A stretch of 48,620 nt of DNA from Candidatus Sulfotelmatobacter sp. (GTDB lineage Bacteria; Eisenbacteria; RBG-16-71-46). How positions within the stretch are numbered: position 1 is the stretch's first letter; each line of letters opens with the position of its first letter. Positions 3,772 through 35,970 of the stretch are shown in pieces. The notes under the pieces were generated by a model. That model did not search any database. It saw nothing but the letters and a program-made list of their open reading frames with translations, and was not told the origin of the DNA. The stretch lies in the NCBI GenBank assembly GCA_035498555.1, contig DATKAB010000198.1:1-48620 (forward strand), written 5' to 3'. Position numbers and translations under genes: made by a program.

Positions 3772-3862
3772 GTTACGATCGTAGCGGGCGACCTGTAGAA
3801 CACTCAACCGAGCCGAGCCCGAAATCGCCTGACTCGCGCCCGCGCTTCCGCCCGAGCTGGAG

Positions 3863-4135: not shown

Positions 4136-4139
4136 GGAA

Positions 4140-4163
4140 GCGGCCTACTCCAAGCTAGGCCGC
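4140..4163. terminator. Bidirectional hairpin between two gene remnants
   Basis: GCGGCCTA (4140-4147) and TAGGCCGC (4156-4163) form a perfect 8-bp stem with an 8-base loop. The dyad begins five bases after the stop of the FlgD-domain remnant and contains the stop codon of the convergent GGDEF remnant. Confidence 0.55.
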
Positions 4164-4345
4164 GCTCGCGTCCCCGTCGCCGCTTCTGCCCTGGGCGATC
4201 CCGAGCGCTCGCGCCGCCGCCGCGACCACCGCCTCGGGCTCCTTGCCATCCTTGGGAAACGCCGCAAGGCCGATGCTCACCGCCACGGCGCCGGCCTCGG
4301 CGCCCGAGAACGCGGCACTCTGCGCAGGCGCTTGCGGCAGCCGTG
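4155..4345 (-). pseudogene. C-terminal fragment of a GGDEF domain
   Basis: The minus-strand frame ending at 4155 gives AVAVSIGLAAFPKDGKEPEA, then VVAAAARALGIAQG. This matches the last strands and helix of a diguanylate-cyclase (GGDEF) domain. The closest visible relative is the end of the 10911-11906 product (VTVSIGISVLPENGAEPQVL). Nothing of the active-site half remains. It starts directly behind the stop of the lipoprotein gene at 4388, so the front of the gene was probably lost when that gene arrived, or by deletion. Confidence 0.6.
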
Positions 4346-4387
4346 GCAACTCCGCCGAAGTCGAGGACGCCGTCGGCGCGTGACCCA

Positions 4388-6905: not shown

Positions 6906-7407
6906 AATCTGAATATGCACGGCACATCCACAGGCAACCGAAGACACACGTAATATCGTCCGGATCGCTCGGGATTGCCAGTCAATTCGACGTGAAGTCC
7001 CCAACGACCGGATTCACTTGCGACTAGCGCCGTGAATGTGCTCCCGAGGCGCTCGGCAGGCCTCGGCCCGGCGGGGCCCGTTCCCGATCGCTCGAGCGGG
7101 CGACTCGGTACATCGAACTCTGCCGGGCCCGCACCCGCGCGCCGCGGCGGGCGTGGACAGTGGGTGGCGACTACCGATGTCCGCGCAGCCACTCCGACTG
7201 TCGTTCGAGCGCTTCCGTGCCCTTTCCCCAGCGCCGCAAGTATCCGCGCTGCTCAAACAGGAAACACTCGACGTTCTCCCAACTCGCGGGGCCGGGCGAT
7301 CGACGCCGACCCGCCAGACGTTCGCAGAGCCCGCCTCGGACGTACGGAGCAACGGTGGGCCGCCGGGTCTCGGCGCGCCCGTGGAACTTCGATCGAGGGA
7401 GCTTCCC
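6906..7407. other. Intergenic region upstream of the first propeller gene
   Basis: No protein gene is supported here. The plus-strand frame of the following gene stays open back to 7036, but that part lacks protein character and the clear signal peptide begins at 7408. The segment 6910-7030 is AT-richer and precedes the minus-strand terminator at 6878-6905, so it may encode a short RNA. On the minus strand a TTGACT occurs near 6980-6985, but I see no convincing -10 box at normal spacing. Confidence 0.4.
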
Positions 7408-12967: not shown

Positions 12968-14467
12968 GTTGCGGTTCGATTCGACCGACTGCCGCGCCTT
13001 CGCACGGGTCTGCTGCGCCTCGAGCGTCAGCTTGTAGGCGACATAGTACTTGTAGATGTTGCGAACGTAGGTGGTGGTTTCCATTCCGATCTTCTGGGCC
13101 ACTACCAGCTCGACGTCGTTGAACCACTCGTTCGGGTCGAGGCCGCGCTTCTCGGCCAGACTGCGCATGCGCGAGATGTTCCCGGGCCCCGCGTTGTAGC
13201 TCGCGAACGCGAACAGCGTGCGATTGGCTTCGTCGAACTGGGCGCCCGCGAAGTACTTGCTCATCAGCCGGTCCATGTACTTGGCGCCGGCGTGGATGTT
13301 GGGTTCGAGCTGCTCGATGTCGCCGACCCGCAATTCGGCCCCGGTCGCGGGCATGATCTGCATCACGCCGATCGCGCCCATGTGGCTGCGCGCGGTCTGG
13401 TCGAGCTTCGACTCCTGGTAGCCCTGCGCCACCAGCATCAGCGGATCGAAGTCGTACTTCGTTCCATATTTCTTGAAGAGCGCCAGCGTCTTCTCGAAGC
13501 GCTTCCACGCCGCGCCACCGGTGCTGTTCGAGATCTGTCTGACGTTCCTTTCATAGCTCGCGATGCGCGACTCGATGATGTCCTGATGCTGGAGCAGGCC
13601 CCGATCGAAGGCTTCGATCTCGTTCCTCAATCTTGGGCTGTCGCGTCGAATCGCCCAGCCGGTCTTGCCGTCGTCGCGGAGGACGATGTCCTTTCGGATC
13701 TTGATCCGGGGCAGCGCCTGCGCCCAGATTCGGGCCTTCCACGAATCCACGATCGTCAGGCCGATCAGGCCGGCGTTCACCATCTCGAGCACGTCCTCGT
13801 CTTCGAGCGCGTCGGGCAGCAGCAGGATCTGCACCGCCGCTCGCCGGTCGGCCTTGAAGCGCGCGTTCAGCGCGATCAGGCTCTCGTAGTAGCTGGAGGA
13901 GCGACGCACTTCGACGGTCTTCCCCGACAGGCTGTCGAGATTGGCGACCGGCGGCGCGTCGGAGGAGCAGACCAGCTCTTCGAGCACCGGCGGCTGTTCG
14001 GCGGGGACGACGAAATCGGCGGCCCTCAGGCGTTCGGGCGTCACCGTCAGGTTGCCGGCGGCGATGTCGCCCAGCCCCCGGGCGAGGTCGCCGACCAATC
14101 GATCGCGCGTCGTGGCGATCAGGCTGATGGTCAGCGGACGCCCGGCCAGCTTCTTCTTGTACTTCTGGTTCAAGTAGCGCTCGAACCCGCGGGCGATCTC
14201 GGCGGTGATGCCGCGCTCGCGACCCTTGTCCACGAAGAACAGCGTGCGGCTGTAGGGGACCAGCATGCGGATGTGGCGGCGATCGAACATTCCATCGAAG
14301 TCGCCGACCCACGGCGTGCGGTCGATCTCGATCTGGCGCAGCTCGTCGTCGTCGGTGGTGTCGCGCGCCTGCGCCGAGCTTGCCGCGGGGAAGAGCAGCG
14401 ACGTCGCCAGCAGCAAGACGCCGAAGCAACCATGGCGAATCCTCTGAGTCATGCGTCCCCGCCTCAT
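12965..14467 (-). CDS. mltF: MltF-like membrane-bound lytic transglycosylase
   Basis: A 500-residue periplasmic enzyme with the two-domain MltF architecture. A signal peptide (HGCFGVLLLATSLLFPAASS) comes first. A substrate-binding-protein family 3 domain spans about 60-300 (LVPYSRTLFFVDKGRERGIT, GDIAAGNLTVTPERL, VEVRRSSSYYESL). A soluble lytic transglycosylase domain spans about 325-450, with catalytic Glu352 in AQGYQESKLDQTARS followed by GVMQIMP and SYNAGPGN. It cleaves the MurNAc-GlcNAc bond of peptidoglycan to anhydro-muropeptides. In MltF of known bacteria the SBP domain regulates activity. Its ATG overlaps the TGA of the upstream acylase-like gene (ATGA, 14464-14467), which implies translational coupling. 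A second in-frame Met (MTQRIRHG, 14452) is an alternative start. Confidence 0.93.
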   Translation of the reverse strand: MRRGRMTQRIRHGCFGVLLLATSLLFPAASSAQARDTTDDDELRQIEIDRTPWVGDFDGMFDRRHIRMLVPYSRTLFFVDKGRERGITAEIARGFERYLNQKYKKKLAGRPLTISLIATTRDRLVGDLARGLGDIAAGNLTVTPERLRAADFVVPAEQPPVLEELVCSSDAPPVANLDSLSGKTVEVRRSSSYYESLIALNARFKADRRAAVQILLLPDALEDEDVLEMVNAGLIGLTIVDSWKARIWAQALPRIKIRKDIVLRDDGKTGWAIRRDSPRLRNEIEAFDRGLLQHQDIIESRIASYERNVRQISNSTGGAAWKRFEKTLALFKKYGTKYDFDPLMLVAQGYQESKLDQTARSHMGAIGVMQIMPATGAELRVGDIEQLEPNIHAGAKYMDRLMSKYFAGAQFDEANRTLFAFASYNAGPGNISRMRSLAEKRGLDPNEWFNDVELVVAQKIGMETTTYVRNIYKYYVAYKLTLEAQQTRAKARQSVESNRN

Positions 14468-16656
14468 TTCCCCGGCCGATAGGTCCGCTCGGTGTGGCCC
14501 CTGAGCTGCCCGGGATAGAAGTACACGGGCCGCAGCTGGCCGCTGGCATACCGCGCCGACTGGTCATTGAAGTGATGCGATCCGGGATCGCCGCTCGCGC
14601 CGCCAATGCTGACGGCCATGGCCCTCACGCTGTCGCCGAATTCGACCGCGGCGACAAAGCTGTTGCCGCTGGTGCCGTACCAGCGGCGCGTGCCGGGATA
14701 GGGACGCGCCGCGAAAGAGGCGAGCGAGCCCCAGATGCCGGCGGTGAACGGCACCGGAATGCTGGCGCGCGCGTCGTCGAAGTGGGGCTCGATCGCCCCG
14801 TCGAGGCGCTGGAAGCGATTGACCTGGCCCCACGGCGTCTTCCACGTGCCGAACGATCGCGTCAACGTGTCCGACGCGGCGACCAGGGCGCGCAGCAGAT
14901 CGTCGCCCGACACGCGCGTCGCGGCAAAGGTCTGCGCCGAGAGATGCTCGGCGCGCGCCGGCGCTCCAACGCGACGCACGATCGCCTCGCCCCAGTGAAT
15001 CGCGAGCGTGGTCGCCACAGATCCTTCGCCCCAGCGGTCGTCCCATCCGCGCAGCGCTTCGATCTCGCCCGCCAGGCGACGCTTCAACGTGTCGGCCGCG
15101 GGCAGGCGATCGTAGGCGGCGAACAGCGGCGGCAGCATGGTCTCGAAGCTGGGGAGGAAGCTGTCGAAGGCCGCGGCCGCGAGCGACTGCAGCGTCCAGT
15201 CGCTGGCGCCGGTCAGCGCGCGCAGCGCATGGCGGCCGCGGGGCGTCTCTTCCGTGCCGGTCTCGACGTACCGCGGATAGTTCTCGCGGCGTGGGCTCGA
15301 AGGCCCCGCCGCCGACCACGGCCAGTCGTTGGAATTGAACACCCAGCCGCTCGCCGGCTTCCAGAGGTTGGGCGACTCGTCCACCGAGAGAAGCCCGCGG
15401 TAGTCGGTGGCGGAGTCGGCGCCGTCTACCGGCGCGGTCCAGTCGAAGCTGGTGTCGCGCCGGGGAATGTAGTTCGAGTGGAAGTAGGCGATGCTGCCCC
15501 GGGAATCCGCGAACACCGTGTTGTTGGAGGAATTGGCGTGCAACTCCATCAGCAGGCGAAACGCCGTGTAGTCGGGGGCCTTGGTGCGACTGAAGGACTG
15601 GGTGAGCGCCGCGACCGGCCTCCACATCAGGCTCACGCTCACCCAGCGATCGCCCTGGCGGCGCACGATCGGGCCGTGCCGCGTGGCATAGACGATGAAG
15701 GTGCGCTGCGCGAGCCCGGAGGGCGTGCGATAGGAGAGCGTGACCTTGCGCGTGAGCATCGGCCGCTCGTCGCTCCCGTGCCGGTAGGTGTAACCGTTGG
15801 ATCGGTGCAGCACGCTCTCGAGGAACTCATCGATGTTGTCCACGCCACTCGAGGTGTGCATCCAGCCGCAGGTGCGATTGAAGCCCTGATAGACGAAGAA
15901 CTGTCCCCAGGTGACCGCGCCGTAGGCGTCGAGCCCTTGATCGCTCGACATCTGGAGCTCCGAGCGGAAGTAGAACGAGGTGTGGGGATTGATCCACAGC
16001 AGCGCGTGGCGATAGCGGGTGAGTTCGGGCGCGATCGCGATGCCGTTCGAGCCGGTGGGTTCTCGAAGCTCGGGCTCCTCGCCGTCGCCCGCGTCGCGCG
16101 GCGCCTGGACGGCGCTGTCGCCGTAAAACGCGGCGAGTCCGGGCACGCTGATGCGTTCGATGTCGCCGCCGATGCTCCCTTCCGTGAACGAGAGCGCCAT
16201 CCACGGCTCGAAGCGCGAAATCGCGAGCGGCTTCACGTCCGGATGCCGGTAGAGATAGAAATTGAGCCCGTCGGCGAACGCGTCCATGAGGTTGCGCAGC
16301 CAGCGCGGACTCGCCCGGTACTGCGCGCGCAGCGAATCCGGGTCGGCGAACAGTCGCGCGCGCAGATCTCGGAAGATCACCGAATCGCCCTCGGCCTCGG
16401 CCAGCCGACCCAGCGCGATCAGATAGTTGCGCTCGATCCGTGGAAAGTCGTCTTCGGCCTGCGCGTACTCGACGCCGAACACCGCGTCGGCGTCGGTCGC
16501 GCCGTGGATGTGCGCGATGCCCCAGTCGTCGCGAACGATGGTGACGCGCGCCGCCTCGCGCTCCCAGCGGGCGATCTCTGCGGAAATGGGCGGCGGCGGT
16601 GCAGCGGGAGTGGAGTGGGCGGTCGCGGCGGTCAGAAGCAGGGCGACGAGGATCAC
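14464..16656 (-). CDS. Penicillin acylase-family N-terminal nucleophile hydrolase
   Basis: A 730-residue exported Ntn-hydrolase. The GTG start at 16656 gives signal peptide MILVALLLTAATAHSTPAAP. Then comes the alpha-chain signature RVTIVRDDWGIAHIHGATDA with GVEYAQAEDDFPRIE, typical of the penicillin/acylhomoserine-lactone acylase family. TGSNGIAIAP places the auto-processing nucleophile at about Ser203, the first residue of the beta chain. Later GPIVRR, SSNNTVFADSRGSIAYFHSN and DWPWSA match beta-chain landmarks. Family members cut amide bonds of beta-lactams, AHLs or other acyl-amines in the periplasm. The ATGA overlap with the MltF-like gene suggests a joint cell-envelope task. The open frame extends further upstream but runs antisense to the GNAT gene, so the start was set at the signal peptide. 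Confidence 0.9.
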   Translation of the reverse strand: MILVALLLTAATAHSTPAAPPPPISAEIARWEREAARVTIVRDDWGIAHIHGATDADAVFGVEYAQAEDDFPRIERNYLIALGRLAEAEGDSVIFRDLRARLFADPDSLRAQYRASPRWLRNLMDAFADGLNFYLYRHPDVKPLAISRFEPWMALSFTEGSIGGDIERISVPGLAAFYGDSAVQAPRDAGDGEEPELREPTGSNGIAIAPELTRYRHALLWINPHTSFYFRSELQMSSDQGLDAYGAVTWGQFFVYQGFNRTCGWMHTSSGVDNIDEFLESVLHRSNGYTYRHGSDERPMLTRKVTLSYRTPSGLAQRTFIVYATRHGPIVRRQGDRWVSVSLMWRPVAALTQSFSRTKAPDYTAFRLLMELHANSSNNTVFADSRGSIAYFHSNYIPRRDTSFDWTAPVDGADSATDYRGLLSVDESPNLWKPASGWVFNSNDWPWSAAGPSSPRRENYPRYVETGTEETPRGRHALRALTGASDWTLQSLAAAAFDSFLPSFETMLPPLFAAYDRLPAADTLKRRLAGEIEALRGWDDRWGEGSVATTLAIHWGEAIVRRVGAPARAEHLSAQTFAATRVSGDDLLRALVAASDTLTRSFGTWKTPWGQVNRFQRLDGAIEPHFDDARASIPVPFTAGIWGSLASFAARPYPGTRRWYGTSGNSFVAAVEFGDSVRAMAVSIGGASGDPGSHHFNDQSARYASGQLRPVYFYPGQLRGHTERTYRPGK

Positions 16657-16668
16657 GGCGTGCAGACT

Positions 16669-16698
16669 ACCCCGAACCGGGGTGATTCGCGCTATCTT
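16669..16698. promoter_or_regulatory. Divergent control region with dyad and -10 box
   Basis: Only 51 bases separate the divergent acylase (16656) and GNAT (16708) starts. ACCCCG-AAC-CGGGGT at 16669-16683 is a perfect dyad, and TATCTT at 16693-16698 sits nine bases before the GNAT ATG. The dyad could be an operator acting on both genes. Confidence 0.45.
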
Positions 16699-16707
16699 CC
16701 CGCGGCC

Positions 16708-17199
16708 ATGGTCACCATTCGTCCGGCGAAGCGATCCGACCTCGAGGCGCTCGGCCGTTACGGCGCGGCGCTGATGCGGCAGCACCACGCCGCGGATCCC
16801 GAACGCTTCATCCAGACCGAGCACCCCGAGCAGGGCTACGGGCGATTCCTGGTCTCCCAGATCTCGAACCCCGAAAGTCTGGTGATGGTGGCCGAGAACG
16901 AGGGCCAGGTCGTCGGTTACGTGTACGCCGACGTCGAGGGCACGAGCTGGATGGATCTGCGCGGACCGGCCGGCGTGATTCACGACATCTATGTGGACGA
17001 ATCGGCGCGGCAACGGGGAGCGGGGCGCGCCCTGATGCGCGCCGCCATCGACTGGGTGCGGGCCCACGGCCGGAATCAAATCGTGCTGCTCACCAAGACC
17101 GGTAACGAGCACGCTCAGGCGCTGTTCTCGGCGATGGGCTTTCGCCCCAGCATGATCGAGATGACGCTGGACCTGGATCCTGCTCCGCCGGGTCGCTAG
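16708..17199 (+). CDS. GNAT-family N-acetyltransferase
   Basis: A 163-residue single-domain acetyltransferase. It begins MVTIRPAKRSDLEAL. Motif A lies around residues 92-110 (HDIYVDESARQRGAGRALMR), with the RxxGxG pyrophosphate loop for acetyl-CoA. The ending NEHAQALFSAMGFRPSMIEM is motif B. It transfers an acetyl group from acetyl-CoA to an amine; the acceptor is not evident. There is no ribosome-binding site. TATCTT nine bases before the ATG suggests a near-leaderless transcript. Divergent from the acylase operon. Confidence 0.92.
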   Translation: MVTIRPAKRSDLEALGRYGAALMRQHHAADPERFIQTEHPEQGYGRFLVSQISNPESLVMVAENEGQVVGYVYADVEGTSWMDLRGPAGVIHDIYVDESARQRGAGRALMRAAIDWVRAHGRNQIVLLTKTGNEHAQALFSAMGFRPSMIEMTLDLDPAPPGR

Positions 17200-17293
17200 A
17201 GCCCCTGTTCGCCTGCGCGTCGCCGGACGTATGGCCCGGTGAGCGGCGCCCGATTCACCCCGACTCGCGCGCGCCGATTCACCGGAGAACGCC

Positions 17294-19747
17294 ATGCGCG
17301 CCGAACGCTCTACCATCCTGCTCGCTCTACTGATTCTGGTCCCGGGGCCCGCCCGTGCCCAGGTTGCCCAGAGCAACCTGTGGGTCGCGAATGGAGCCGT
17401 GAACGCGATCGCGCTCGCGGGCAACACCGTCTACATGGGTGGCGAGTTCACGCGCCTCGGCCCGCCGACTGGCGGCTTCGTGACGCTCGACGAGACGACC
17501 GGCGCGGTGGTAGCGCCCGGCGCCGGCGGAGGGGTCGCGGGCACGGTGATGTGCTCACTCGTTGATGCCGGCGGCGGCCGCTTTGTCGGCGGTTCGTTCC
17601 AGTTCGTCCAGGGCCAGAGCCACAGCGGGCTCGCCCACTTCGATTCCAACGGCAACTTGCTTCCCTGGAGTCCCAGCGTCGGCAACGGCTACGTCTATGC
17701 CATGGCCATCGACTATTCCAATCCGAACGTCCTTTACATTGGCGGCGTCTTCAGTTCGGTCAACGGAGTCACGCGCAACTCCCTGGCGGCGATCGACGTC
17801 ACGACCGGCGCGCTGCTCGATTGGAACCCGGGCACCAACGGCCTGGTCAACGCGATGGTCGCCTACAACGGGGTGGTCTACGTCGGCGGATCGTTCACGA
17901 TGGCCGGGGGCTACACGCGAAACGATCTGGCGGCGGTGGATGGGACCGGCGCCGTGACCGGCTGGGATCCCAATTCCAACGGCGACGTCAACGCGCTCGC
18001 GCTCTCGGCAAATCCCTTCACTCACCTGCCGACGATTTGGATTGGCGGACTGTTCACGAGCTTGCAGGGGCAGGCGCGCTATTCGATCGGCTGCGTGGAC
18101 GTGACGGGGACGCCCCTGAGCTGGAGCCCGAACGCCGACCACGCCGTCCGCACGATCGTGCTCGGCTACTCGCACAATTTCGTCAACGCGGTTTACCTGG
18201 GAGGCACGTTCGACCTGGTCGCGGGGCAGTCGCGGCAGTATCTCGCCGAGGTCGACCCCTCGACCGGCGTCGCCTCCTCGACCTTCAATCCGTCGCCCGA
18301 TCAACCCGTGTCGTCGATCGCCCTCGACGGGACCTCGGTGTACGTCGGAGGCTCGTTCACCCGCATCGGCGGAGTCTCCCGGCAGTATCTGGCCGGGCTC
18401 GACGCGACTTCCGGCGCCGTGTCCTCGTGGGATCCAAGCCCGGATGCGGGCGTGGCCTGCCTGGACGCGTGGAGCGGGACGGTGCGCGTCGGCGGCGCGT
18501 TCGGAAGTCTGGGCGGCGTAACCCGCAATCATCTCGCGGCACTGGACGCCACGACCGGCATGCCGACATCGTGGGATCCAAATGCGAGTGGCCCGATCAA
18601 CGCGCTGACTGTCAACGGTGGCACGCTCTACGCGGGCGGCCAGTTCGCGACGATCGTTGGTCAGAACCGCGGAAACGGTGCGGCATTCAACAGCGGCGGC
18701 ACCCTGCTGTCGTGGGATCCTCGCGCTACCGGCCCGATCAACGCGCTCGCGGGATTCGGCGGCTCGATCTACGTGGGCGGCGGATTTCTGAGCGCCGGCG
18801 GACCGGGAAACCCCATGCTGGCGCGGCTCGATCCTTCTTCGGGAAACAGCGTCGCGCCGCTTCCCACGCCCGATCGGCCGGTCCACGCGCTGATGGTTCG
18901 CGATTCGGTCATGTACGTCGGCGGCGAGTTCCAGCGCCTGAATGGGTTCGTCAGGAGTGGCGCGGGAGCGTTCGACCTCAAGAACTTTGCGGTCACCAAC
19001 TGGGATCCCGAGGTTTTGGGCGCGAGTCAGGGGCCGGTCACCATGGTCGATGCTCTGGCGCAGGTCGGCAACCTGATCGCCTTGGGCGGTGACTTCCTTG
19101 AAGTCCACTTCGCGATGCACACCAACCTGGCCCTGGTGGACCCGGTCGTCGGGTTCGTGGCCGGCTGGTATTCGCCGGTCTATCAGCCAGTCCTCGCGCT
19201 GTTGGACCTCGGCAACACACTCTGTGCTGGTGGGTACTTCGTCAGCTCGGGTCCGGGCGCGACCGGCCCACTCGCGGCGATCGATCTGACCAGCCTTGCC
19301 GCCCGTCCCTGGAACACCGGGATGACGGGCGAGGTTCATTCACTCGCGGCCGGCGCCGGCGCGCTCTACGTCGGCGGCTCGCAATCGCCGTCGGCGGGAG
19401 GGTGGCCGCACGAGAACTTCGCAGCGTTCTCGGGCGGCGTCACGGCGGTGAATGAAGAGCCCGTCGCGCCACTTCACTGCGCGATTCATCTCTCGTCGAA
19501 TCCTTCGCGCGGAAGTGTGACGTTCAGTTTCGCGTTGCCCGGGCGCACCGCGACCGAGGTCACCGTGTTCGACGCGGCCGGCCGAGTGGTGCGAAGCCTC
19601 CACGCCGGCGACTTGCCGGCCGGCGAGCTACATATAATGTGGGACGGCCGCGACGATACCGGGCGTTTTGCGCGATCGGGGGTCTATTTCGTGCGCATTC
19701 GTGGGGCGAATCTCGATCTCGAGGCCAAACTCATTCACCTCCACTGA
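17294..19747 (+). CDS. Secreted YVGGxF (DUF5122-like) propeller protein with FlgD-type C-terminal domain, paralogue 2
   Basis: An 817-residue exported protein. Signal peptide MRAERSTILLALLILVPGPA with ARA-Q cleavage, then QSNLWVANGAVNAIALAGNT, almost the same opening as paralogues 1 and 3. The chain has about 14 blades with VYVGGSFT..GG..R..LA.LDA.TG....WDP. The C-terminal domain (SSNPSRGSVTFSFALPGRTA, WDGRDDTGRFARSGVYFVRI, KLIHLH) is of the FlgD/T9SS type. A GGAGAA ribosome-binding site lies six bases upstream of ATG 17294. Its order of blades and spacer lengths follow paralogue 3 closely, pointing to duplication within this locus. The function is presumably binding or a structural role at the surface. 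Confidence 0.9.
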   Translation: MRAERSTILLALLILVPGPARAQVAQSNLWVANGAVNAIALAGNTVYMGGEFTRLGPPTGGFVTLDETTGAVVAPGAGGGVAGTVMCSLVDAGGGRFVGGSFQFVQGQSHSGLAHFDSNGNLLPWSPSVGNGYVYAMAIDYSNPNVLYIGGVFSSVNGVTRNSLAAIDVTTGALLDWNPGTNGLVNAMVAYNGVVYVGGSFTMAGGYTRNDLAAVDGTGAVTGWDPNSNGDVNALALSANPFTHLPTIWIGGLFTSLQGQARYSIGCVDVTGTPLSWSPNADHAVRTIVLGYSHNFVNAVYLGGTFDLVAGQSRQYLAEVDPSTGVASSTFNPSPDQPVSSIALDGTSVYVGGSFTRIGGVSRQYLAGLDATSGAVSSWDPSPDAGVACLDAWSGTVRVGGAFGSLGGVTRNHLAALDATTGMPTSWDPNASGPINALTVNGGTLYAGGQFATIVGQNRGNGAAFNSGGTLLSWDPRATGPINALAGFGGSIYVGGGFLSAGGPGNPMLARLDPSSGNSVAPLPTPDRPVHALMVRDSVMYVGGEFQRLNGFVRSGAGAFDLKNFAVTNWDPEVLGASQGPVTMVDALAQVGNLIALGGDFLEVHFAMHTNLALVDPVVGFVAGWYSPVYQPVLALLDLGNTLCAGGYFVSSGPGATGPLAAIDLTSLAARPWNTGMTGEVHSLAAGAGALYVGGSQSPSAGGWPHENFAAFSGGVTAVNEEPVAPLHCAIHLSSNPSRGSVTFSFALPGRTATEVTVFDAAGRVVRSLHAGDLPAGELHIMWDGRDDTGRFARSGVYFVRIRGANLDLEAKLIHLH

Positions 19748-19794: not shown

Positions 19795-19804
19795 TTTGTC
19801 CCTC

Positions 19805-22555
19805 ATGGCACCGACCCCCCGCAGCCCGCTTCGCCTCGTTCTTCCGGCGATCACCCTGGCTCTGCTCGCTGTGCCCGCCGGACTGTCGGCGGATCCCGAT
19901 CGCCGCGCCGAGCCCGGGCCCGTGGCGGGAACCAACGTCCTCGCGTCGCCGCTTCCCGTCTCGGGGCGCGCGGTGGTGAGCCTCGGCGATCTCGCCAAGG
20001 CTCAGGCGCGGATATCGATCCTGTCACGCCCGCCGGTTCGGCCACTGGTTCACCCCGAGCTGAACGAGGAAGAGCAAGAAGAGGAGACTGGCCCGATCGC
20101 GCCGGCACCGAAGTTCTCGTCGGTCCCGCGCATCCTGCTGTCATCGCCGCCGCCCACCACCAGCTTCCAGGGCCTCGACGACATCCCGATGGTGGACTCG
20201 AGCTACATCATCATTCCGCCCGACGTGAACGGCGCGGTCGGGCTCAGCACCATCTTTCAGAACCTCAACAACAACGTGCGCGTGCTCAACAAGGCGGACG
20301 GCTCACCCATCCTCACCGTCGGCGTCAACACCTTCTGGGCGCCGGCCGGTGGGGCGCCCAACGATTACACCGATCCGCGCACGGTCTACGATCCTTACAA
20401 CAATCGCTGGATCACCATCATGCAGGGCGATCTCAGCAACGCCACCGGCAACTCGCTGGTCATCGGGCTCTCCGACACCAGCGACCCCACGGGCGTCTGG
20501 CACCTGTGGCGCACGATCCTCTACGAGAGCACCTCGATCGCACTCGCCGACTTTCCGACGCTCGGATTCAACAAGAACTGGATCACGGTTTCGATCAACA
20601 TGTATCGAAACACCGGGAACGCCAACGGCGTGAGCATCCTGATGATCCACTACCCGTCGCTCCGCTCCGGAACCTGGGATGCTTTCCGCGTCGATCGCAC
20701 CGGAACCAGCAACTTCTGCTACGCGCCGGTGCAGACCTATTCGGCGACCAGCGACACCGAATACGTGATGCAGCATCTCTCCGCGAGCAGCGCCACCTAC
20801 CGGGTCGATCGCATCACCGGCACCGGCCCCGGAGCGCCCACCTACACGGTGGGCACCACTCAAACGCGCACCGGCGGCGGCTGGGCCTCGGGGTCGGGGC
20901 AGTCGTTGCCACAGAGCGCTCCCAACGCCGGCTCGAGCGCCTGTGGCAGCACGCCGTGCCGGATCGAGCTGATCGACTCCCAGCTCCGCACCGCGCCGGT
21001 GTTCCGCAACGGCTCGATCTGGTACGTGCAGACCATCGGCCTCCCGGCGGTCGGGATGACGCACAGCGCCGCCCAGTGGACGCAGATTACGACCCCCTCG
21101 GGGGCGTACGTGGACGGCGGCCGGGTCGAGGATCCGACCGCCACCGTGAGCAACGGCGGCAAGTGGTACGCCTATCCACAGATCGCGGTGAACGCGCAGG
21201 AAAACTTCCTGGTCGGCTTCAGCCAGTGTTCGTCGGCGCAGCATCCGTCGGCGGGTTATGCGATGCACTTCGCGAGCGACGGTGCCGGCACGATCCGCGA
21301 CCCGGTGATCTCCAGGGCGGGTGAAGACTACTACCACAAGGATTTCGGCACCGGCCGCAATCGCTGGGGAGATTTCACTTCCTCGCAGGTGGACCCCGCC
21401 GATGACGCCACGCTGTGGACCGTCGCCGAATACGCCAAGAATCGCCCGAACACCGACGACGGGACGACCGGTAGCAACGGCAGCCGTTGGAGCACGTGGT
21501 GGGCGAGCGTCGGGACCAGCTCGTTCACGATCACCGCCAGTGCCGGCGCCAACGGCTCGATCGTGCCCTCGGGCGCCGTTTCGGTGTCGCAGGGCGCCGA
21601 CCAGAGCTTCACCATCTCGCCGTCGCCCAACTTCCACGTCGCCGACGTGCTGGTGGATGGCTCGAGCGTCGGCGCGGTGACCGGCTACACGTTCAACAAC
21701 GTGAATGCCGACCACACGATCGCGGCGAGCTTCGCGCCCGACAGCTTCACGGTGACACTGAGTGTGGTGGGGCCGGGCTCGGCGGCGCGCAACCCTGATC
21801 AACTGCACTACGCCTACAACTCGAACGTCCAGCTCACGGCGACGCCGCTGTCCGGCTGCGCGTTCCTCGGCTGGAGCGGGGATTCGCTTTCGGCGTTGAA
21901 TCCGCTGACCGTGCCGGTGCTCGAGAACCTGACGCTGACCGCGACCTTTGCCGACACCACGCCCCCGGTGGCGCAGGTGCTGGCGCCACTTCCGAGCGAC
22001 GACGTGACGGTCGGCGGCAACGCCACGCTCAAGTGGTCGGCCACCGACAATCTCGCCGTGACGCGTATCGACCTCCTGCTCTCGCGCGCCGGCAGCGGCG
22101 GACCTTTCGATTCGGTCGCGACCGGACTCGCCAACTCGGGAAGCTTCGATTGGACGGTCACCGGCCCGCCGAGCCTCGACGCGGTACTCGAGGTGATCGC
22201 GCGTGACTCGACCGGACTTGTCGGCACCGCGATCAGCGATTCGGCGTTCGCCATTGCTTCGGGCAACACCGCGGTGGGCCAGCAGGTGGTGCGCGAGTTC
22301 GCGCTCGACCGGGTCTCGCCTCAGCCGGTCCGTGGCGCGGCGCACATCCGCTTCGAGCTGCCGCGCGAGGCCAGCATTCGTCTCACGGTGCTCGACGTGC
22401 AGGGCCGCGTCATCGAGGTGCTGGCGGACGGCTCCGCCGGCGCCGGCGTCCACGAGGTCGCCTGGGCGGGAACCCGACTGCCCTCGGGGCTCTATTTTCT
22501 CCGCCTGAAGGCCCCCGGCCACACCTTCGTTCAGCGCGTGGTGCGACTGCAGTAG
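19805..22555 (+). CDS. Large secreted protein with bacterial-repeat and FlgD-type C-terminal domains
   Basis: A 916-residue exported protein. The signal peptide is RLVLPAITLALLAVPAGLSA. Residues ~110-575 form one large domain containing PPDVNGAVGLSTIFQNLNNN, RTVYDPYNNRWITIMQGD, DFPTLGFNKNWITVSINMYR and DYYHKDFGTGRNRWGDFTSS. This resembles uncharacterised secreted proteins with an adhesive or hydrolase-like propeller; I cannot name an activity. Then follow two bacterial-repeat (InlB B-repeat-like) modules, ITASAGANGSIVPSGAVSVS with DHTIAASFAPDS and VQLTATPLSGCAFLGWSGDS. An Ig-like stretch comes next, and finally a FlgD-type C-terminal domain (PQPVRGAAHIRFELPR, SGLYFLRLKAPGHTFVQRVV). It sits between propeller paralogues 2 and 3 on the same strand and has its own promoter. 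Confidence 0.87.
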   Translation: MAPTPRSPLRLVLPAITLALLAVPAGLSADPDRRAEPGPVAGTNVLASPLPVSGRAVVSLGDLAKAQARISILSRPPVRPLVHPELNEEEQEEETGPIAPAPKFSSVPRILLSSPPPTTSFQGLDDIPMVDSSYIIIPPDVNGAVGLSTIFQNLNNNVRVLNKADGSPILTVGVNTFWAPAGGAPNDYTDPRTVYDPYNNRWITIMQGDLSNATGNSLVIGLSDTSDPTGVWHLWRTILYESTSIALADFPTLGFNKNWITVSINMYRNTGNANGVSILMIHYPSLRSGTWDAFRVDRTGTSNFCYAPVQTYSATSDTEYVMQHLSASSATYRVDRITGTGPGAPTYTVGTTQTRTGGGWASGSGQSLPQSAPNAGSSACGSTPCRIELIDSQLRTAPVFRNGSIWYVQTIGLPAVGMTHSAAQWTQITTPSGAYVDGGRVEDPTATVSNGGKWYAYPQIAVNAQENFLVGFSQCSSAQHPSAGYAMHFASDGAGTIRDPVISRAGEDYYHKDFGTGRNRWGDFTSSQVDPADDATLWTVAEYAKNRPNTDDGTTGSNGSRWSTWWASVGTSSFTITASAGANGSIVPSGAVSVSQGADQSFTISPSPNFHVADVLVDGSSVGAVTGYTFNNVNADHTIAASFAPDSFTVTLSVVGPGSAARNPDQLHYAYNSNVQLTATPLSGCAFLGWSGDSLSALNPLTVPVLENLTLTATFADTTPPVAQVLAPLPSDDVTVGGNATLKWSATDNLAVTRIDLLLSRAGSGGPFDSVATGLANSGSFDWTVTGPPSLDAVLEVIARDSTGLVGTAISDSAFAIASGNTAVGQQVVREFALDRVSPQPVRGAAHIRFELPREASIRLTVLDVQGRVIEVLADGSAGAGVHEVAWAGTRLPSGLYFLRLKAPGHTFVQRVVRLQ

Positions 22556-22661: not shown

Positions 22662-25097
22662 ATGGGAACCACGACGCTTGCCGCATCGCTTGCCGCACTG
22701 GCGATCGTCGCCGCACCCGCCCGCGCGCAGAACGTCCAGAGCAACCTGTGGGTGACCAATGGCATCGTGAACGCGATCGCGGTCTCGGGCAACACGGTCT
22801 ATATCGGCGGCGCGTTCACGCGACTCGGTCCGCCGATTGGCGGATTCGTCAGGGTCGACGGCACTACGGGCGCGGTGCTGCCGCCGGCGTACGGCGTCGC
22901 CGGCACGATCACCTGCTCGATTCCCGATGGCAGCGGCGGTCACTTCGTCGCCGGCAGCTTTGACGTTCAGGGCTTCTCGGGCTGGCCGATCGTCCACTTC
23001 GACTCCAGTGGACACGGGGTGTACCTGAACTCGTACTCGATCGATGGCACGGTGTACGCGATGGCGATCGATCCGCTCAACCCCGGCGTGCTCTATCTCG
23101 GCGGGGCGTTCAGTCACGTGGACGGCGCGATCCGCACCAATCTCGCCGCATTCGATCTCACCACCGGCTACCTCACCAGCTGGACTCCCAGCACCAACGG
23201 AACGGTTCGCACTCTGACCGCCTACAACGGAGTGATCTACATCGGCGGACACTTTAGCCAGGCGAACAGCGCGGCCCGCGGCAACCTGGCCGCGGTGGAC
23301 GCGTCCGGCGCACTCACCGCCTGGGACCCCGAGGCCAGTTCCGATGTCTGGACGATGGCCCTTTCGGTCTTGCCGATCACTCACGCGATCACGGTCTGGC
23401 TCGGCGGCCAGTTCATCAGCCTTCAGGGCCAGCCGCGCTACTCGATCGGCGCCGTGGACGGCGCGGGCACCCCGCTCGACTGGAGCCCGAACGCCGGTCA
23501 CATCGTGAAGACCATGGCCCTGGGCTATTCCCGCAACCGGGTGGTGGCGGTCTACATCGGCGGCACCTTCGACCAGATCGCCGGGCACTCGGTGCCGTAT
23601 CTGGCGGAGCTCGACGCCTCCGGAGCGGTCGTGACGGGATTCGCTCCGTCGCCCGATCAGGAGGTGGACGCCATCTGGCTCGACGGCTCGACGCTCTACG
23701 CGGGCGGCGAGTTCACGAACATGGGGGGCGTCTCGCGGCAGTTTGCCGCGTCGGTCGACGCGAGCACCGGCGCGGTGACGAGCTGGAACCCAAGCCCCAA
23801 CGGGTTCGTGACCTGCCTCGATGCCTCGGGTGGCAACGTCGATCTCGGCGGCTCGTTCGGGAGCCTCGGCGGCGTCACGCGCAATCATCTCGCCGCGCTC
23901 GACGCCTCGACCGGCCTGCCGACGTCGTGGGATCCGGATGTGGACGGAGTCGTCAACGCGCTTGCGGTCAGCAACGGCATGCTGTTCGCGGCGGGCGCTT
24001 TCAGCAGCGTCGGCGGGCAAACGCGCGGCAACGGCGCGGCCTTCGACGCGAACGGCGCGCTCACTCCGTGGGATCCCCGTGCGAATGGCGGCATCAACGC
24101 GCTGCTCCCGCTCGGCGGCTCGATCTACGCGGGTGGAGCCTTTTTCAGCGTGGCGGGACAGCCTCGCGGCCGGCTCGCTCAGCTCGACGCGATCACCGGA
24201 GACCCCTGGCCCGCGATCCCCAGCTCGGATGGACCGGTCTACGCGCTCGCGATCCACGATTCGATTGTCTACGTGGGCGGAATGTTTCAGACCTTTGGAG
24301 GAATGGCGCGGCACGGGGCCGCCGCGTTCGCCGTCTACTACAACAACGTGATGGCCTGGCAACCCAGTGTCACCGGCGGACCGCAGGGACCGCCCGCGGT
24401 GTATTGCATCGCACCGCTCACCTCGACCCTGCTGATCGGTGGGAGCTTCGACGCGGTGTTTGGATCGACCCGCCATGGGATCGCCGAGGTGGACTACACC
24501 CTCGGATCCCCGACTCCGTGGACTGCCTCCCCGTATCTTCCGGTGCGAGCATTCCTGCCGCTCGGGAACACGCTCTTCATCGGCGGTGACTTCTCCACTT
24601 TCAGTCCCGGATTCGGCGGACCGCTTGTCGCCGTGGATACTCCCACCATGGCCAATCTTCCATGGGGCTCCCCAATCGAGGGACAGGTCCGCTGCCTCGC
24701 CGCCGGCGCGGGGCGGCTCTACGCCGGTGGGATCTGGTTCGGGGCCGGCGGCTGGCCGCATGAGTGCCTGGCGGGGCTGTCGGGAGGCTTCGCGGGGGTG
24801 GGAGAGGAGCCGATCGAGCGACGCCCAGGCGCGCTTCGACTCTCCGCGAATCCGTCGCGGGGTCTGGTCTCGTTCCGATTCGCGATACCCGAACGCGGGC
24901 CGGCGAAGGCCGGCATCTACGACCTCGCGGGTAGGCGGGTGCGCGAGGTGTACGACGGCGAGCTCCCGGGCGGTGAGCAATCGCTCTCATGGGATGGCCG
25001 CGACGATGCCGGCCGACCGGCCCGATCCGGCGTCTACTTCGTGCGGGTGAACGGCGCGGGGGTTCAACTCGAAGCCAGGCTGGTGCATCTGCGCTGA
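22662..25097 (+). CDS. Secreted YVGGxF (DUF5122-like) propeller protein with FlgD-type C-terminal domain, paralogue 3
   Basis: An 811-residue exported protein. Signal peptide (TLAASLAALAIVAAPARAQ), then VQSNLWVTNGIVNAIAVSGN and the blade motif VYIGGAFTRLGPPIGGF. Blades repeat to about residue 715; one reads GNVDLGGSFGSLGGVTRNHL, nearly identical to VRVGGAFGSLGGVTRNHL in paralogue 2. The C-terminal domain has SANPSRGLVSFRFAIPE, WDGRDDAGRPARSGVYFVRV and RLVHLR. The start at 22662 follows GGGGAG by about seven bases. It is preceded by 106 intergenic bases and followed by the selenoprotein candidate. It is likely a surface or secreted binding protein. Confidence 0.9.
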   Translation: MGTTTLAASLAALAIVAAPARAQNVQSNLWVTNGIVNAIAVSGNTVYIGGAFTRLGPPIGGFVRVDGTTGAVLPPAYGVAGTITCSIPDGSGGHFVAGSFDVQGFSGWPIVHFDSSGHGVYLNSYSIDGTVYAMAIDPLNPGVLYLGGAFSHVDGAIRTNLAAFDLTTGYLTSWTPSTNGTVRTLTAYNGVIYIGGHFSQANSAARGNLAAVDASGALTAWDPEASSDVWTMALSVLPITHAITVWLGGQFISLQGQPRYSIGAVDGAGTPLDWSPNAGHIVKTMALGYSRNRVVAVYIGGTFDQIAGHSVPYLAELDASGAVVTGFAPSPDQEVDAIWLDGSTLYAGGEFTNMGGVSRQFAASVDASTGAVTSWNPSPNGFVTCLDASGGNVDLGGSFGSLGGVTRNHLAALDASTGLPTSWDPDVDGVVNALAVSNGMLFAAGAFSSVGGQTRGNGAAFDANGALTPWDPRANGGINALLPLGGSIYAGGAFFSVAGQPRGRLAQLDAITGDPWPAIPSSDGPVYALAIHDSIVYVGGMFQTFGGMARHGAAAFAVYYNNVMAWQPSVTGGPQGPPAVYCIAPLTSTLLIGGSFDAVFGSTRHGIAEVDYTLGSPTPWTASPYLPVRAFLPLGNTLFIGGDFSTFSPGFGGPLVAVDTPTMANLPWGSPIEGQVRCLAAGAGRLYAGGIWFGAGGWPHECLAGLSGGFAGVGEEPIERRPGALRLSANPSRGLVSFRFAIPERGPAKAGIYDLAGRRVREVYDGELPGGEQSLSWDGRDDAGRPARSGVYFVRVNGAGVQLEARLVHLR

Positions 25098-25152: not shown

Positions 25153-25839
25153 ATGGTCTCGTCCTGCCCCGCGACCGGGCCGCATCCGGAGAACGGTTGG
25201 CCCAGATACAGGCCGCGCGTTGCCGCAGCAATCCTCGTGCTTGGCGTGCTGACAGCGACCACGGCACTCGCGCTCGATCCGCTCGAGACGCACATGACGC
25301 CGCCGTCGCAGCCGCCGATCCAGGCGATCGAGGGGCGCGACCTCACGCCGGTGAAGGAGCTGTTCAACCGCGAGGCCGACCACATCCGCGTTCTCGTGCT
25401 GCTGTCGCCCACCTGACCGTTCTGCCTGCGGGGGGCCTCCGCATTCCAGAAAGCACTCGATCAGGACAGCAGCGATCTTCGCGTGATCGTGATGTGGGAA
25501 CACGTGACGCCCAGCGACAAGGACCTCACGCTGCCGCCCTCGGCTTCCCAATTCCGCATTCCCGACCGGCGCGCGGTGCAGTTCTGGGACGACCAGCGCG
25601 CGCTCTCGCGCACCATGGACTACGAGCTGCCGTTCGACACGCTAAAGAGCGTGGCCGACATCGACAGCAACAGTGTCATCGCCTGGGATTGCATCGCGCT
25701 CTACCGGCCCGGCCGGAGGTGGGAGCAGGTGTTCCCGGTTCCGGACTGGGCGGGACGGCCGGTCTCGGCGGTTGCCGAGACCATGCGGGTGCGGCTGCGC
25801 GCCATCGAGCGCGAGGCATCGCGCGACAGCGCGAGGTAG
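25153..25839 (+). CDS. Probable selenoprotein: exported thioredoxin-fold protein with a UPFC redox motif, read through TGA
   Basis: The frame from ATG 25153 meets TGA at 25414-25416 and continues in the same frame to TAG at 25837-25839, giving 228 residues if TGA is read as selenocysteine (residue 88). Upstream is a signal peptide or anchor (PRVAAAILVLGVLTATTALA) and a thioredoxin-type beta strand (HIRVLVLLSPT). Directly after the TGA comes PFCLRGASAFQKALDQ, so the site reads U-P-F-C. This is a CxxC redox motif with Sec in the attacking position, at the start of the first helix where thioredoxins have it. Then follow DLRVIVMWEHVTP (next strand) and AVQFWDDQRALSRTM. A hairpin at 25422-25449 lies at bacterial SECIS distance. 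It would be a periplasmic thiol oxidoreductase. No selA, selB or selC is in the window. A nonsense mutation or sequencing error is the alternative, but the intact downstream frame argues against decay. TAGCTT nine bases before ATG suggests a leaderless mRNA. Confidence 0.8.
25422..25449 (+). promoter_or_regulatory. Candidate bacterial SECIS hairpin
   Basis: TGCGGG (25427-25432) pairs with TCCGCA (25438-25443, one G-U) around loop GGGCC, and CTG (25422-25424) with CAG (25447-25449) below a small internal loop. The loop begins with G and lies 16 bases after the TGA. As I recall them, bacterial SECIS models require a G among the first loop positions and a spacing of roughly 16-37 bases; this fits at the short end. 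SelB would bind here to deliver Sec-tRNA. Confidence 0.65.
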
Positions 25840-25887: not shown

Positions 25888-26925
25888 ATGAATCGGGCGT
25901 GCCTCTGCGCATTCGCTCTCGCGGCGCTGCTTCCGCCCGCCACCGCCGTGGGCGCCAAGACCGACGCCGCGATTCTCCAGAACGGCGACCACATCACCGG
26001 CGAAGTGAAGGGCCTCGCGCGCGGGAAGCTCGACTACAGCACCGATGACGCCGGCCGCCTTTCCATCGAATGGGAGAAGCTGGCGCGCCTGACCAGCCCG
26101 CACTCGTTCCATCTCGAACTGGATTCGGGCGAGCGCTACCTGGGGAGTCTCGGGGTGCCCGATCGCGATGGGCGCGTGGTCGTGCAAGGTGCGCGCACCG
26201 ACACGCTGGCGCTCCCTCGGATCGTCGAAATCACGCCGCTCAATGCCGCATTCCTCCAGCGGCTGATCGCCTACTTCGATCTCGGCTTCACGCTCGCCAA
26301 GGCCAACCAGGCGACTACCTTCAGTCTGAGCGGCGCCGCCGATTACCGCGGGGAATCCGTCGGCAGCCAGACCAAGTTCGACTCCTACGCGCAGGGACAG
26401 GAGTCGGTGCCGACCACCACACGCAACTCGGTCCGGCAATCGGTGAGCTGGTATCTGCCGCATCGCTGGTCGGTGGTGGGGCTCGCACAGCTCGAGCAGA
26501 ACGACGAGCTGGATCTCGACCATCGCGTCACCGCCGGTGGCGGCATCAGTCGCATGGTCGCGCAGAGCAATCGCATGGATTTCTCGCTGGGAGCGGGGCT
26601 GGTCGGCACCCAGGAGCAGTTCACCACCGACACGGGGCGCTCCTCCGATGCCTCTTTCGAAGGGCTGCTGGCCATGAACTGGGACATGTTCCGATTCGAC
26701 AGTCCGAAGCTGGACTTCAATACCGGCGCGGCGGTGTATCCGAGCATCTCGGATGCAGGCCGCGTGCGCGGGCAGCTGGACTTTCGCCTGACTTATGAGG
26801 TGTTCAAGGACTTCAACACCGGAGTCCGTTTCAGCGACACGTTCGACAGCCGGCCGCCCGACGCCGGGGCATCGAAGAACGACTACATCACCACGCTCAC
26901 GATCGGCTGGTCGTATCGGCGCTGA
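25888..26925 (+). CDS. DUF481 (YdiY-like) outer-membrane protein
   Basis: 345 residues. Signal peptide MNRACLCAFALAALLPPATA. A small N-terminal domain follows (AAILQNGDHITGEVKGLARG, then GKLDYSTDDAGRLSIEWEKL), a beta fold that precedes DUF481 in many proteins. From about residue 125 the chain alternates as in a beta-barrel: ATTFSLSGAADYRGE, SVSWYLPHRWSVVGLAQLEQ, HRVTAGGGISR, ending TLTIGWSYRR. DUF481 proteins are outer-membrane barrels, some induced by salt or acid; their biochemical role is unknown. TACCTT six bases before ATG 25888 suggests a leaderless transcript. It lies 48 bases after the selenoprotein candidate and may follow it functionally. Confidence 0.88.
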   Translation: MNRACLCAFALAALLPPATAVGAKTDAAILQNGDHITGEVKGLARGKLDYSTDDAGRLSIEWEKLARLTSPHSFHLELDSGERYLGSLGVPDRDGRVVVQGARTDTLALPRIVEITPLNAAFLQRLIAYFDLGFTLAKANQATTFSLSGAADYRGESVGSQTKFDSYAQGQESVPTTTRNSVRQSVSWYLPHRWSVVGLAQLEQNDELDLDHRVTAGGGISRMVAQSNRMDFSLGAGLVGTQEQFTTDTGRSSDASFEGLLAMNWDMFRFDSPKLDFNTGAAVYPSISDAGRVRGQLDFRLTYEVFKDFNTGVRFSDTFDSRPPDAGASKNDYITTLTIGWSYRR

Positions 26926-33786: not shown

Positions 33787-33803
33787 TGAAGACTTCATGA
33801 AGG
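33787..33803 (-). promoter_or_regulatory. Putative response-regulator box upstream of the fusion hydrolase
   Basis: TGAAGACTTCATGAAGG contains TGAAG twice at 11-bp spacing, the geometry of OmpR/PhoB-type binding sites. It overlaps the histidine-kinase stop codon and lies 72-88 bases before the hydrolase start. The same box, in the same orientation, precedes the regulator gene (35971-35987). Confidence 0.55.
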
Positions 33804-35231
33804 CGAGGCGATGGGGAGCGAAAGGGTGAATCGCGCCCCGCTTCCCGGCGGACTCTCTGCGCGAATGCTCCCGCCGTGCGCCAGGGCCAGCTGGCGCACG
33901 ATCGCGAGGCCGAGGCCGGCGCCGCCGCTCGAGCGAGCGCGCGAGGGATCGGCGCGATAGAAGCGATCGAAGACGTGGGGGAGATGTTCCGGGGCGATTC
34001 CCGTCCCGGCGTCGGAAACCGATACCTCGAGGTGGTCGCCGGCGCGCGTCGCGTCGACCGCGATCTCGCCGCCATCCGGGCTGTGGGTGAGGGCGTTCTC
34101 GAGCAGATTGCGCAGGATCTGCCCGAGTCGAAGCGGATCCACCAGCGCGCCGGGCAGACCGGAGGCGACGCGCGGCACGAGCGTGATCCGCCTCCCGGCA
34201 GCGCGCGCGGCAATCGCCCCCAGGGCCTCCGCGACCGCGCGTCCCAGATCCACGGGCGCGCGATGGAGCGGCAGCTGCCCGGCCTCGGCCAGCGCCAGGT
34301 CCTGGAGGTCGTTGACGAGCCGCGTGAGAAAGGCGATCTCCTCCAGCAGCGAGCGCAGCCCTTCCGGGGTCACCGGGGTCAGCCCGTCCTCGAGAGCCTC
34401 GATCTGGCAGCGGAGATTGGTGAGCGGCGTTCGCAGCTCGTGCGCCACGTCGGTTACCAGCGCCCGCCGGAGCGACTCGGTGCGCTCGAGCGAGGCCGCC
34501 ATCGCGTTGAACGCGTGCGCGAGCTCGCCGATCTCGTCGCGCGAACGAATCGCGATGCGCTGCCCGAGGTCGCCGGACTCCATGCGCCGCGCCGCGCGCG
34601 TCAGCTCCTCCACCGGTCCGAGAATGCGGCGCGAGAGTGCGAGCGAGAGCAAGAGCGCCAGCAGGCCGGCGCCGAGGACCGCGTACAGGAGCCAGCGATT
34701 GACCGCGGGCAGGAACCCGGTTTCGCGTTCCAGTCCCGGCCCGGGATCGCGCGGGAAGGGAAGCAGCGTTCCGAGAGCCGACCCGTCGGCCGCGCGCACG
34801 ATTGCGGGACGCGCGGCGGCGATCATGACGTGACGCAGCGTCGGAACACCCTCGCGGACCTCGGCGCGATCCACCTCGATCACCCCATCGGCACGAAAGC
34901 GCACCCGCGCCGCGCGCAGCTCCGGCGTGCTCGCCGCCAGGACGCGGCCGGTGGAGTCCACCAGCAGCAGATTCTGGTCGAGGGGACGGGCGATCCGCGA
35001 CAGAGCCGAATCCATCGCCACCGAATCGCGCAGCGCGGGCGCGTCCGTCGCCGCCAGGCGCGCCGAGAGCAGTTCGGCCGCGTCGCTCAGGCTCTTGCCG
35101 CGCACCCGGCTCTCGAGGCGCTGGAATTCGGTGCGCACCGCGAGTCGCGACACCAGCGCCGCCGTCACCAGCGCGACACCGGTCACCGCCACCGCCAGCA
35201 GCAGCAGCCGCGCCCGCAGGCTACGAAGCAT
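33795..35231 (-). CDS. Sensor histidine kinase (HAMP-HisKA-HATPase)
   Basis: 478 residues. Membrane helix 1 at about 8-30, a periplasmic sensor of about 145 residues (ending GLERETGFLPAVNRW), helix 2 at about 181-200, and HAMP at 201-253 (RRILGPVEELTRAARRMESG). HisKA follows with phospho-acceptor His264 in TDVAHELRTPLTNLRCQIEA. The HATPase_c domain has LGQILRNLLENALTHSPDGG (N box), VSDAGTGIAPEHLPHVFDRF (G1/F box) and GAGLGLAIVRQLALAHGG (G2). It autophosphorylates and passes phosphate to the regulator encoded just upstream, whose gene it overlaps by 11 bases. The ligand sensed is unknown; the layout is BaeS-like. Confidence 0.95.
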   Translation of the reverse strand: MLRSLRARLLLLAVAVTGVALVTAALVSRLAVRTEFQRLESRVRGKSLSDAAELLSARLAATDAPALRDSVAMDSALSRIARPLDQNLLLVDSTGRVLAASTPELRAARVRFRADGVIEVDRAEVREGVPTLRHVMIAAARPAIVRAADGSALGTLLPFPRDPGPGLERETGFLPAVNRWLLYAVLGAGLLALLLSLALSRRILGPVEELTRAARRMESGDLGQRIAIRSRDEIGELAHAFNAMAASLERTESLRRALVTDVAHELRTPLTNLRCQIEALEDGLTPVTPEGLRSLLEEIAFLTRLVNDLQDLALAEAGQLPLHRAPVDLGRAVAEALGAIAARAAGRRITLVPRVASGLPGALVDPLRLGQILRNLLENALTHSPDGGEIAVDATRAGDHLEVSVSDAGTGIAPEHLPHVFDRFYRADPSRARSSGGAGLGLAIVRQLALAHGGSIRAESPPGSGARFTLSLPIASPS

Positions 35232-35922
35232 GCTTCGGATCCGCGAGCCGGTAGCCGACGCCGAACACCGTGAGGATCCACTCCGGCTCGGCGGGGTCGC
35301 GCTCCAGCTTGCGGCGCAGGTTCACGACGTGGGCGTCCACGGTGCGATCGAGCGCTTCGTAGCCCGGGCCGAACGCCCGCTCGACCAGCTCCTCACGCGT
35401 GAACGCGCGGCCCGGAGATCGCGCCAGCGCCTCGAGCAACGCGAACTCGCGAGGCGTGAGCGTCACGCGGCGCGCACCGATCCGCACTTCGCGCCGGGCC
35501 GGATCGACGCGCAACTCGCCGAGCGCGATCGGCTGGCGATCGCGAGCCCCGGCCGGGAACCGGCGTAGCACCGCCCGAACCCGCGCCACCAGCTCGCGCG
35601 GACTGAATGGCTTGCACACGTAGTCGTCCGCGCCGGCGTCGAGGCCCTCCAGCCGATCCTCCTCGGTGGTGCGCGCAGTGAGCAGGATGATCGGCACCTC
35701 GGATTCCTCGCGGAGCGAACGACACACCGCCAGCCCGTCCACGCCGGGCAGCATCCGGTCGAGCACGATCAGGTGGGGCGTCGGATTCGTGCGCGCCTGC
35801 TCGAGCGCCGCGCGGCCATTCGCGGCGACCGCGACCGCGTAGCCGGCATTTTCGAGGTAGAGACGCACCGAGGCGACCGTCTTCGGGTCGTCCTCGGCGA
35901 TCAGAATGCGGGTCTTCGGCAT
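35221..35922 (-). CDS. OmpR-family response regulator
   Basis: 233 residues. The receiver domain (1-120) has the acidic pocket Glu10-Asp11-Asp12, phospho-acceptor Asp55 in LIVLDRMLPGVDGLAV, the LLTART switch Thr and the conserved Lys in YVCKPFSPREL. The winged-helix domain (135-230) has VTLTPREFALLEALARSPGR, ALDRTVDAHVVNLRRKLERD and ILTVFGVGYRL. It forms an operon with the overlapping kinase gene. The start is placed at MPKTRILIAEDD (35922). A possible direct-repeat box for this regulator lies 49-65 bases upstream (35971-35987) and another before the fusion hydrolase gene, so it probably autoregulates and controls the hydrolase. Confidence 0.95.
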   Translation of the reverse strand: MPKTRILIAEDDPKTVASVRLYLENAGYAVAVAANGRAALEQARTNPTPHLIVLDRMLPGVDGLAVCRSLREESEVPIILLTARTTEEDRLEGLDAGADDYVCKPFSPRELVARVRAVLRRFPAGARDRQPIALGELRVDPARREVRIGARRVTLTPREFALLEALARSPGRAFTREELVERAFGPGYEALDRTVDAHVVNLRRKLERDPAEPEWILTVFGVGYRLADPKHAS

Positions 35923-35970
35923 GGTCGAGGCGTTCTCCGGCAGGTCGGACCGGAGCATCTCAGGAATCTA

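Follow-up and report, generated by a model that had tools for sequence, protein, structure and literature searches.

The mid-gene TGA codon of a gene from Candidatus Sulfotelmatobacter sp. (Eisenbacteria) raises the question of whether it ends a decaying frame or is read as selenocysteine (Sec). The gene lies on contig DATKAB010000198.1, positions 1 to 48,620 of which were analysed and are referred to here as the window. We find that the TGA almost certainly codes for Sec in an exported thioredoxin-like protein. The features of the locus to which the text refers are as follows.

25153..25839, + strand: gene of the selenoprotein, which has 228 residues and Sec as residue 88; homologues have TGA in the same column
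25153..25275, + strand: probable N-terminal export signal, residues 1-41, judged from hydropathy, with a hydrophobic core at 27-41
25321..25836, + strand: predicted thioredoxin-fold domain, residues 57-228, from an AlphaFold2 model and Foldseek comparison with the PDB
25414..25416, + strand: UGA codon read as selenocysteine, residue 88; the family column is TGA or a Cys codon throughout
25414..25425, + strand: UPFC redox motif (U-x-x-C); Pro86, Sec/Cys88 and Cys91 are invariant in 74 members
25427..25443, + strand: bacterial SECIS upper stem-loop of 7 bp, identified from covariation, slid controls, the contrast between Sec and Cys genes, and published rules

The interrupted frame

The frame starts with an ATG at 25153 and ends with a TAG at 25837-25839, and its internal TGA is flanked on both sides by conserved protein sequence. 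When the frame is translated with Sec at this codon, the residue occupies the first position of UPFC in the string SPT-U-P-F-C, at the redox position where a CxxC motif has its first Cys. The initial annotation had described both the intact frame and this placement correctly. It had also counted the 141 open codons downstream as an argument against decay, which is invalid: the six frames of this GC-rich window contain 1051 TGA codons, and 40 of these are likewise preceded by 87 or more open codons and followed by about 140. Open-frame length was therefore dropped as evidence. What raises the locus above chance is the recurrence of the same TGA column in many genomes, the substitution of Cys at that column and the covariation of the stem that follows it.

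Homologues and the residue-88 column

Among 99 related genomes, the column is TGA in ten homologous loci from class relatives and Cys (TGT) in two. Genome contigs were further scanned at the DNA level with a degenerate pattern, yielding at least 120 matches, at least 110 of which belong to the family by profile score; this pattern contains TGA, so the scan does not yield a ratio of Sec to Cys. Among the matches listed, the family is found in more than 15 bacterial phyla, including Acidobacteriota, Planctomycetota, Chloroflexota, Actinomycetota, Gemmatimonadota, Latescibacterota, Armatimonadota and Nitrospinota. Figures for Sec and Cys were instead taken from 247 Acidobacteriota genomes searched with a profile, a method that does not favour TGA over Cys codons. 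The family was present in 34 of these genomes, and the 30 loci that were read comprise 23 with TGA, six with a Cys codon and one (L187) that is unassigned.

Cys at the column of residue 88 had been proposed as the decisive check, and eight homologues carry it, as TGT or TGC (L020, L021, L167, L174, L178, L181, L186 and L189). Wherever the residue is not Sec, it is Cys. A quick tree requires at least six changes between the two states, and the independent genomes of L011 and L124 share the TGA at 65-70% protein identity. A tblastn search against plasmids gave no match. Two further observations concern gene content at family loci: tandem pairs of UxxC selenoprotein genes occur in Planctomycetota (L052:2066-3901 and L130:124-1419), and a thioredoxin-like protein with a WCGAC motif is encoded beside the family gene in six loci.

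A bacterial SECIS hairpin downstream of the UGA

The initial annotation placed a hairpin with a G-starting loop 16 bases after the TGA. The hairpin and the loop (GGC, 25434-25436) are as described, between a 5' arm at 25427-25433 and a 3' arm at 25437-25443; the loop begins at 17 nt, one base off the earlier figure. Published rules for bacterial SECIS elements ask for a loop of 3-9 nt with a G within its first two positions, an upper stem of 4-16 bp, a distance of 16-37 nt from the UGA and an MFE of -7.5 or lower. With its 7 bp, GGC loop, 17-nt distance and a folding energy of -13.9 kcal/mol for 25414-25453, the hairpin conforms to them, and the SECIS search that had been proposed was thus favourable. 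The hairpin of the window is no more stable than its own shuffles (z -0.84), and a synonymous-shuffle test gave a mean z of -0.38 (Wilcoxon p 9e-5), a small mean shift in which L010 itself does not fall below its shuffles. Single-sequence folding energy was not significant; covariation is the informative test.

Across 69 ungapped sequences, a 7-bp stem with a 3-nt loop 17 nt past the TGA is paired in 94.8% of cells, as opposed to 38-58% when the stem is slid out of register; these sequences were chosen from 119, a selection that favours the standard register. The covariation score of the stem is 0.603, which was reached by none of 500 shuffles, and RNAalifold recovers the same stem unaided. 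The covariation can be followed through codons: Ser TCC accompanies Arg CGG, and Ser TCT accompanies Gln CAG, such that one pair remains G-C or A-U. Across all 119 sequences, seven pairs are kept in 56, six in 17, five in 14 and four or fewer in 32, and about one third of all Sec members lie outside the standard stem register. Ten Sec genes that were left out when the stem was defined keep 6-7 of the 7 pairs, whereas eight Cys homologues keep 2-4. The stem is retained with Sec and lost with Cys. Insertion of Sec at codon 88 is strongly supported by these comparisons between sequences.

Selenocysteine machinery in the host genome and across the family

The host genome is a draft of 3.8 Mb in 219 contigs with a listed completeness of 100. 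It encodes selA, selB, selD and a tRNA-Sec with anticodon UCA (TCA), all of the components that the initial annotation had proposed to look for, and its selB scores above the curated cut-off. The selD gene (L029, G000:C81:24058-24978) adjoins the tRNA-Sec gene (L002, G000:C81:23785-23878) and has an in-frame TGA of its own, in the pattern U-x-x-K. The genome therefore contains one or more selenoprotein genes besides that of the window.

Among the matches listed, 47 of 50 genomes with DNA-pattern matches have a SelA match, and the three without any (L053, L140 and L141) hold only chance pattern matches. Of 44 family genomes, again among the matches listed, SelA is strong in 41 and present as a fragment at a contig edge in one, while the remaining two have no convincing match. 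In Acidobacteriota, SelA is present in 31 of 33 family genomes compared with 129 of the other 214 (Fisher p 5.8e-5, uncorrected for kinship). A convincing SelA is missing from two Acidobacteriota genomes with the Sec form and from two further family genomes, perhaps owing to incomplete assemblies. Of the findings named in advance as counting against a selenoprotein, neither missing Sec machinery nor homologues that end at the UGA column were seen. The overall interpretation is supported, every computational check proposed for it having come out favourably.

Predicted fold, export and family signature

The AlphaFold2 model (mean pLDDT 86, pTM 0.77) has a strand at residues 78-84 followed by a helix at 89-103, and its first core helix opens with the redox motif. 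Foldseek matched the model to Sco1, TlpA, DsbE, Gpx and PrxQ structures in the PDB, with TlpA, Sco1 and DsbE on top (best E 3.7e-4, probability about 1, query TM 0.43 for the best match). The predicted model supports a thioredoxin fold at the superfamily level only. Members share the signature [LF]SPTUxxCxxGA and a C-terminal pattern of VWxP, RxxxxW and WD. The signal peptide claimed earlier corresponds to a signal-like hydrophobic stretch at residues 27-41 in the hydropathy profile. Of 79 stand-alone members, 68 have a hydrophobic N-terminal stretch and nine have a lipobox-like Cys, which suggests that the family protein is extracytoplasmic.

Gene neighbourhood of the family and of the window copy

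Partner profiles were built from clustered flanking frames of the family loci. Three upstream partners recur: a membrane protein that resembles MerT and bears a CC pair, a regulator of the MerR type whose cysteines are conserved, and a (seleno)protein of the DF family. Of 117 loci, 45 have the MerT-like gene next to the family gene or fused to it, 26 have MerR and 20 have DF; in approximately 228 kb outside these positions in the same loci the profiles gave zero, three and zero matches, respectively. A frequent arrangement is merR-DF-merT-selenoprotein, with the family gene last. In L096 (Acidobacteriaceae KBS 96; 3360-5020, - strand) the four genes overlap or are separated by a few bases, and the operon is preceded by a dyad, CTGGAGT-gg-ACTCCAG, located between TTGACT and TATTTT, a putative promoter recognised by eye. 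The same tight order of merR, DF (NF049942), MerT-like and selenoprotein genes is seen in L145, L153, L157 and others. Stand-alone MerT-like proteins match MerT models weakly, and the fused MerT passes the Pfam MerT cut-off. The fusions, in the Eisenbacteria relatives L019, L063 and L014, carry MerT and heavy-metal-associated (HMA) domains on the N-terminal side of the UxxC domain. Members with partners occur in several parts of the tree. No recurrent MerA-like cluster was seen in the flanking frames that were clustered.

MerT, MerR and DF partners are all absent from 65 of the 117 loci, including that of the window. Comparison of the flanks of these loci revealed no single recurrent neighbour; a few have DsbD or thioredoxin neighbours. 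The window copy falls in a supported clade of 45 rows that is rich in mer-linked members, on a branch of its own without a partner. It is not part of a mer-type operon, its neighbours being a beta-propeller/FlgD_ig protein and a DUF481 protein. A search with the MerT-like alignment, run with positive controls, gave no match in its genome versus matches in four other genomes; PF02411 matched no control. Any metal role of the window copy would thus be extrapolated from its relatives, as it has neither a mer operon nor a MerT-like match in its genome.

Large secreted-type proteins with FlgD_ig C-terminal domains are encoded at 7036-9819, 19796-22555 and 22662-25097 (+), two of them with beta-propeller repeats (DUF5122). 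Ordinary genes of the window include a penicillin amidase (14464-17427, -), the DUF481 protein (25888-26925, +), a histidine kinase with a response regulator (33795-35958, -) and tRNA-Arg(CCT) (2580-2656, +).

Discussion

The best explanation of the locus, to which we give a probability of about 0.9, is an exported thioredoxin-fold selenoprotein with a Sec88-Cys91 redox pair, in a wider family that is possibly metal-linked. UGA codon 88 would be read as Sec by means of the downstream SECIS hairpin, SelB and tRNA-Sec, and the protein would be exported, as its hydropathy indicates. Judging from the motif, Sec88 and Cys91 most likely form a selenol/thiol pair that undergoes selenenylsulfide exchange outside the cytoplasm.

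That the TGA instead arose by nonsense mutation in a pseudogene, or stands for a Cys codon that was miscalled in the assembly, is extremely improbable. The genome is a draft and open frames after TGA codons are frequent in the window (40 cases), but the same TGA stands in the independent L011 and L124, the column is TGA in more than 110 genomes with strong co-occurrence of SelA, and a covarying stem after the TGA would be unexpected in a decaying gene. It is scarcely more credible that UGA is read through as an amino acid other than Sec, or that only the N-terminal piece is used. The inserted residue is deduced from comparison, which leaves room for the former, but the alternative residue is always Cys, the genome encodes the Sec machinery and only genes with TGA keep the stem; the N-terminal piece alone would be half a thioredoxin fold in the AlphaFold2 model. 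The Gpx and PrxQ structures among the Foldseek matches would fit a peroxidase of the peroxiredoxin or glutathione-peroxidase type rather than a thiol-disulfide oxidoreductase or metal-linked protein. We regard this as improbable, given that the invariant U-x-x-C pair with Cys91 is a thioredoxin-type arrangement and that the 74 members have no match to any Pfam family, whether of peroxidases or of other proteins.

For the wider family, we put at about even odds a role in a thiophilic-metal (mercury-type) pathway, since many relatives are the last gene of merR-DF-merT operons or are fused to MerT. Such proteins may keep the cysteines of the pathway reduced, or may bind metal. A more specific version, in which the Sec of UxxC captures extracytoplasmic Hg(II) or an organomercurial and hands it to the MerT-like partner, with selenium standing where classical mer uses MerP, is doubtful. 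The main rival to the metal role is general extracytoplasmic thiol-disulfide housekeeping of the TlpA/CcmG/Sco-like kind, with the MerT link as a lineage-specific side use, for which we would allow somewhat less than an even chance. It would account for the partnerless majority of loci, for the occasional DsbD or thioredoxin neighbours and for the leading fold matches, but MerT-like proteins are by far the commonest partner and are also found fused, and the members with partners are scattered over the tree.

The selenoprotein reading adds a widespread family whose members would be truncated at the stop codon by ordinary annotation. In many relatives, MerT-like, MerR-type and DF genes accompany a Sec protein, which offers a testable link between selenium use and the handling of mercury-type metals in uncultured soil and marine bacteria.

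Comparison with known systems

A 2026 list comprises 119 prokaryotic selenoprotein families (PMC13188914). The 74 members have no match at E 0.01 among Pfam and NCBIfam models, and no NCBIfam or Pfam model on the list matches the family, CDD-only entries lying outside this comparison. A text search for the SPTU motif, the coverage of which excluded subscription papers, preprints and GenBank annotation, returned no paper. The family is uncatalogued in the sense that it is absent from Pfam, NCBIfam (June 2026) and the 2026 list.

The bacterial UxxC thioredoxin-fold selenoproteins on that list include Trx (PF00085), thiol:disulfide interchange (PF13098), Redoxin (PF08534), SaoT (NF040730) and HUIPC (NF047660) (PMC13188914, Table 1). 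The present family resembles them in having U-x-x-C at the thioredoxin redox site, a predicted thioredoxin fold, and an in-frame UGA with a bacterial SECIS, but its 74 members match none of these models, nor GOS_C (NF045500), and have their own signature. With the MerT/CopZ fusion-like heavy metal transport selenoprotein (NF045683) it shares the tie between selenium and a MerT-type transporter. The window protein does not match that model, and the L019 fusion matches it in the MerT part only, at 68 bits against a cut-off of 375, with Sec here in a separate thioredoxin domain. The DF family (NF049942), the 'hypothetical protein DF' of deep-Sep (PMC12013277), is a different protein family and a partner rather than a homologue; its copy in L096 reaches 105 bits, where the cut-off is 70, and the recurrent gene order gives DF a genomic context. 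As in the mer operon (MerR, MerT, MerP, MerA), a MerR-type regulator and a MerT-like protein precede the selenoprotein gene in many relatives, but here the selenoprotein and DF replace the genes that usually follow.
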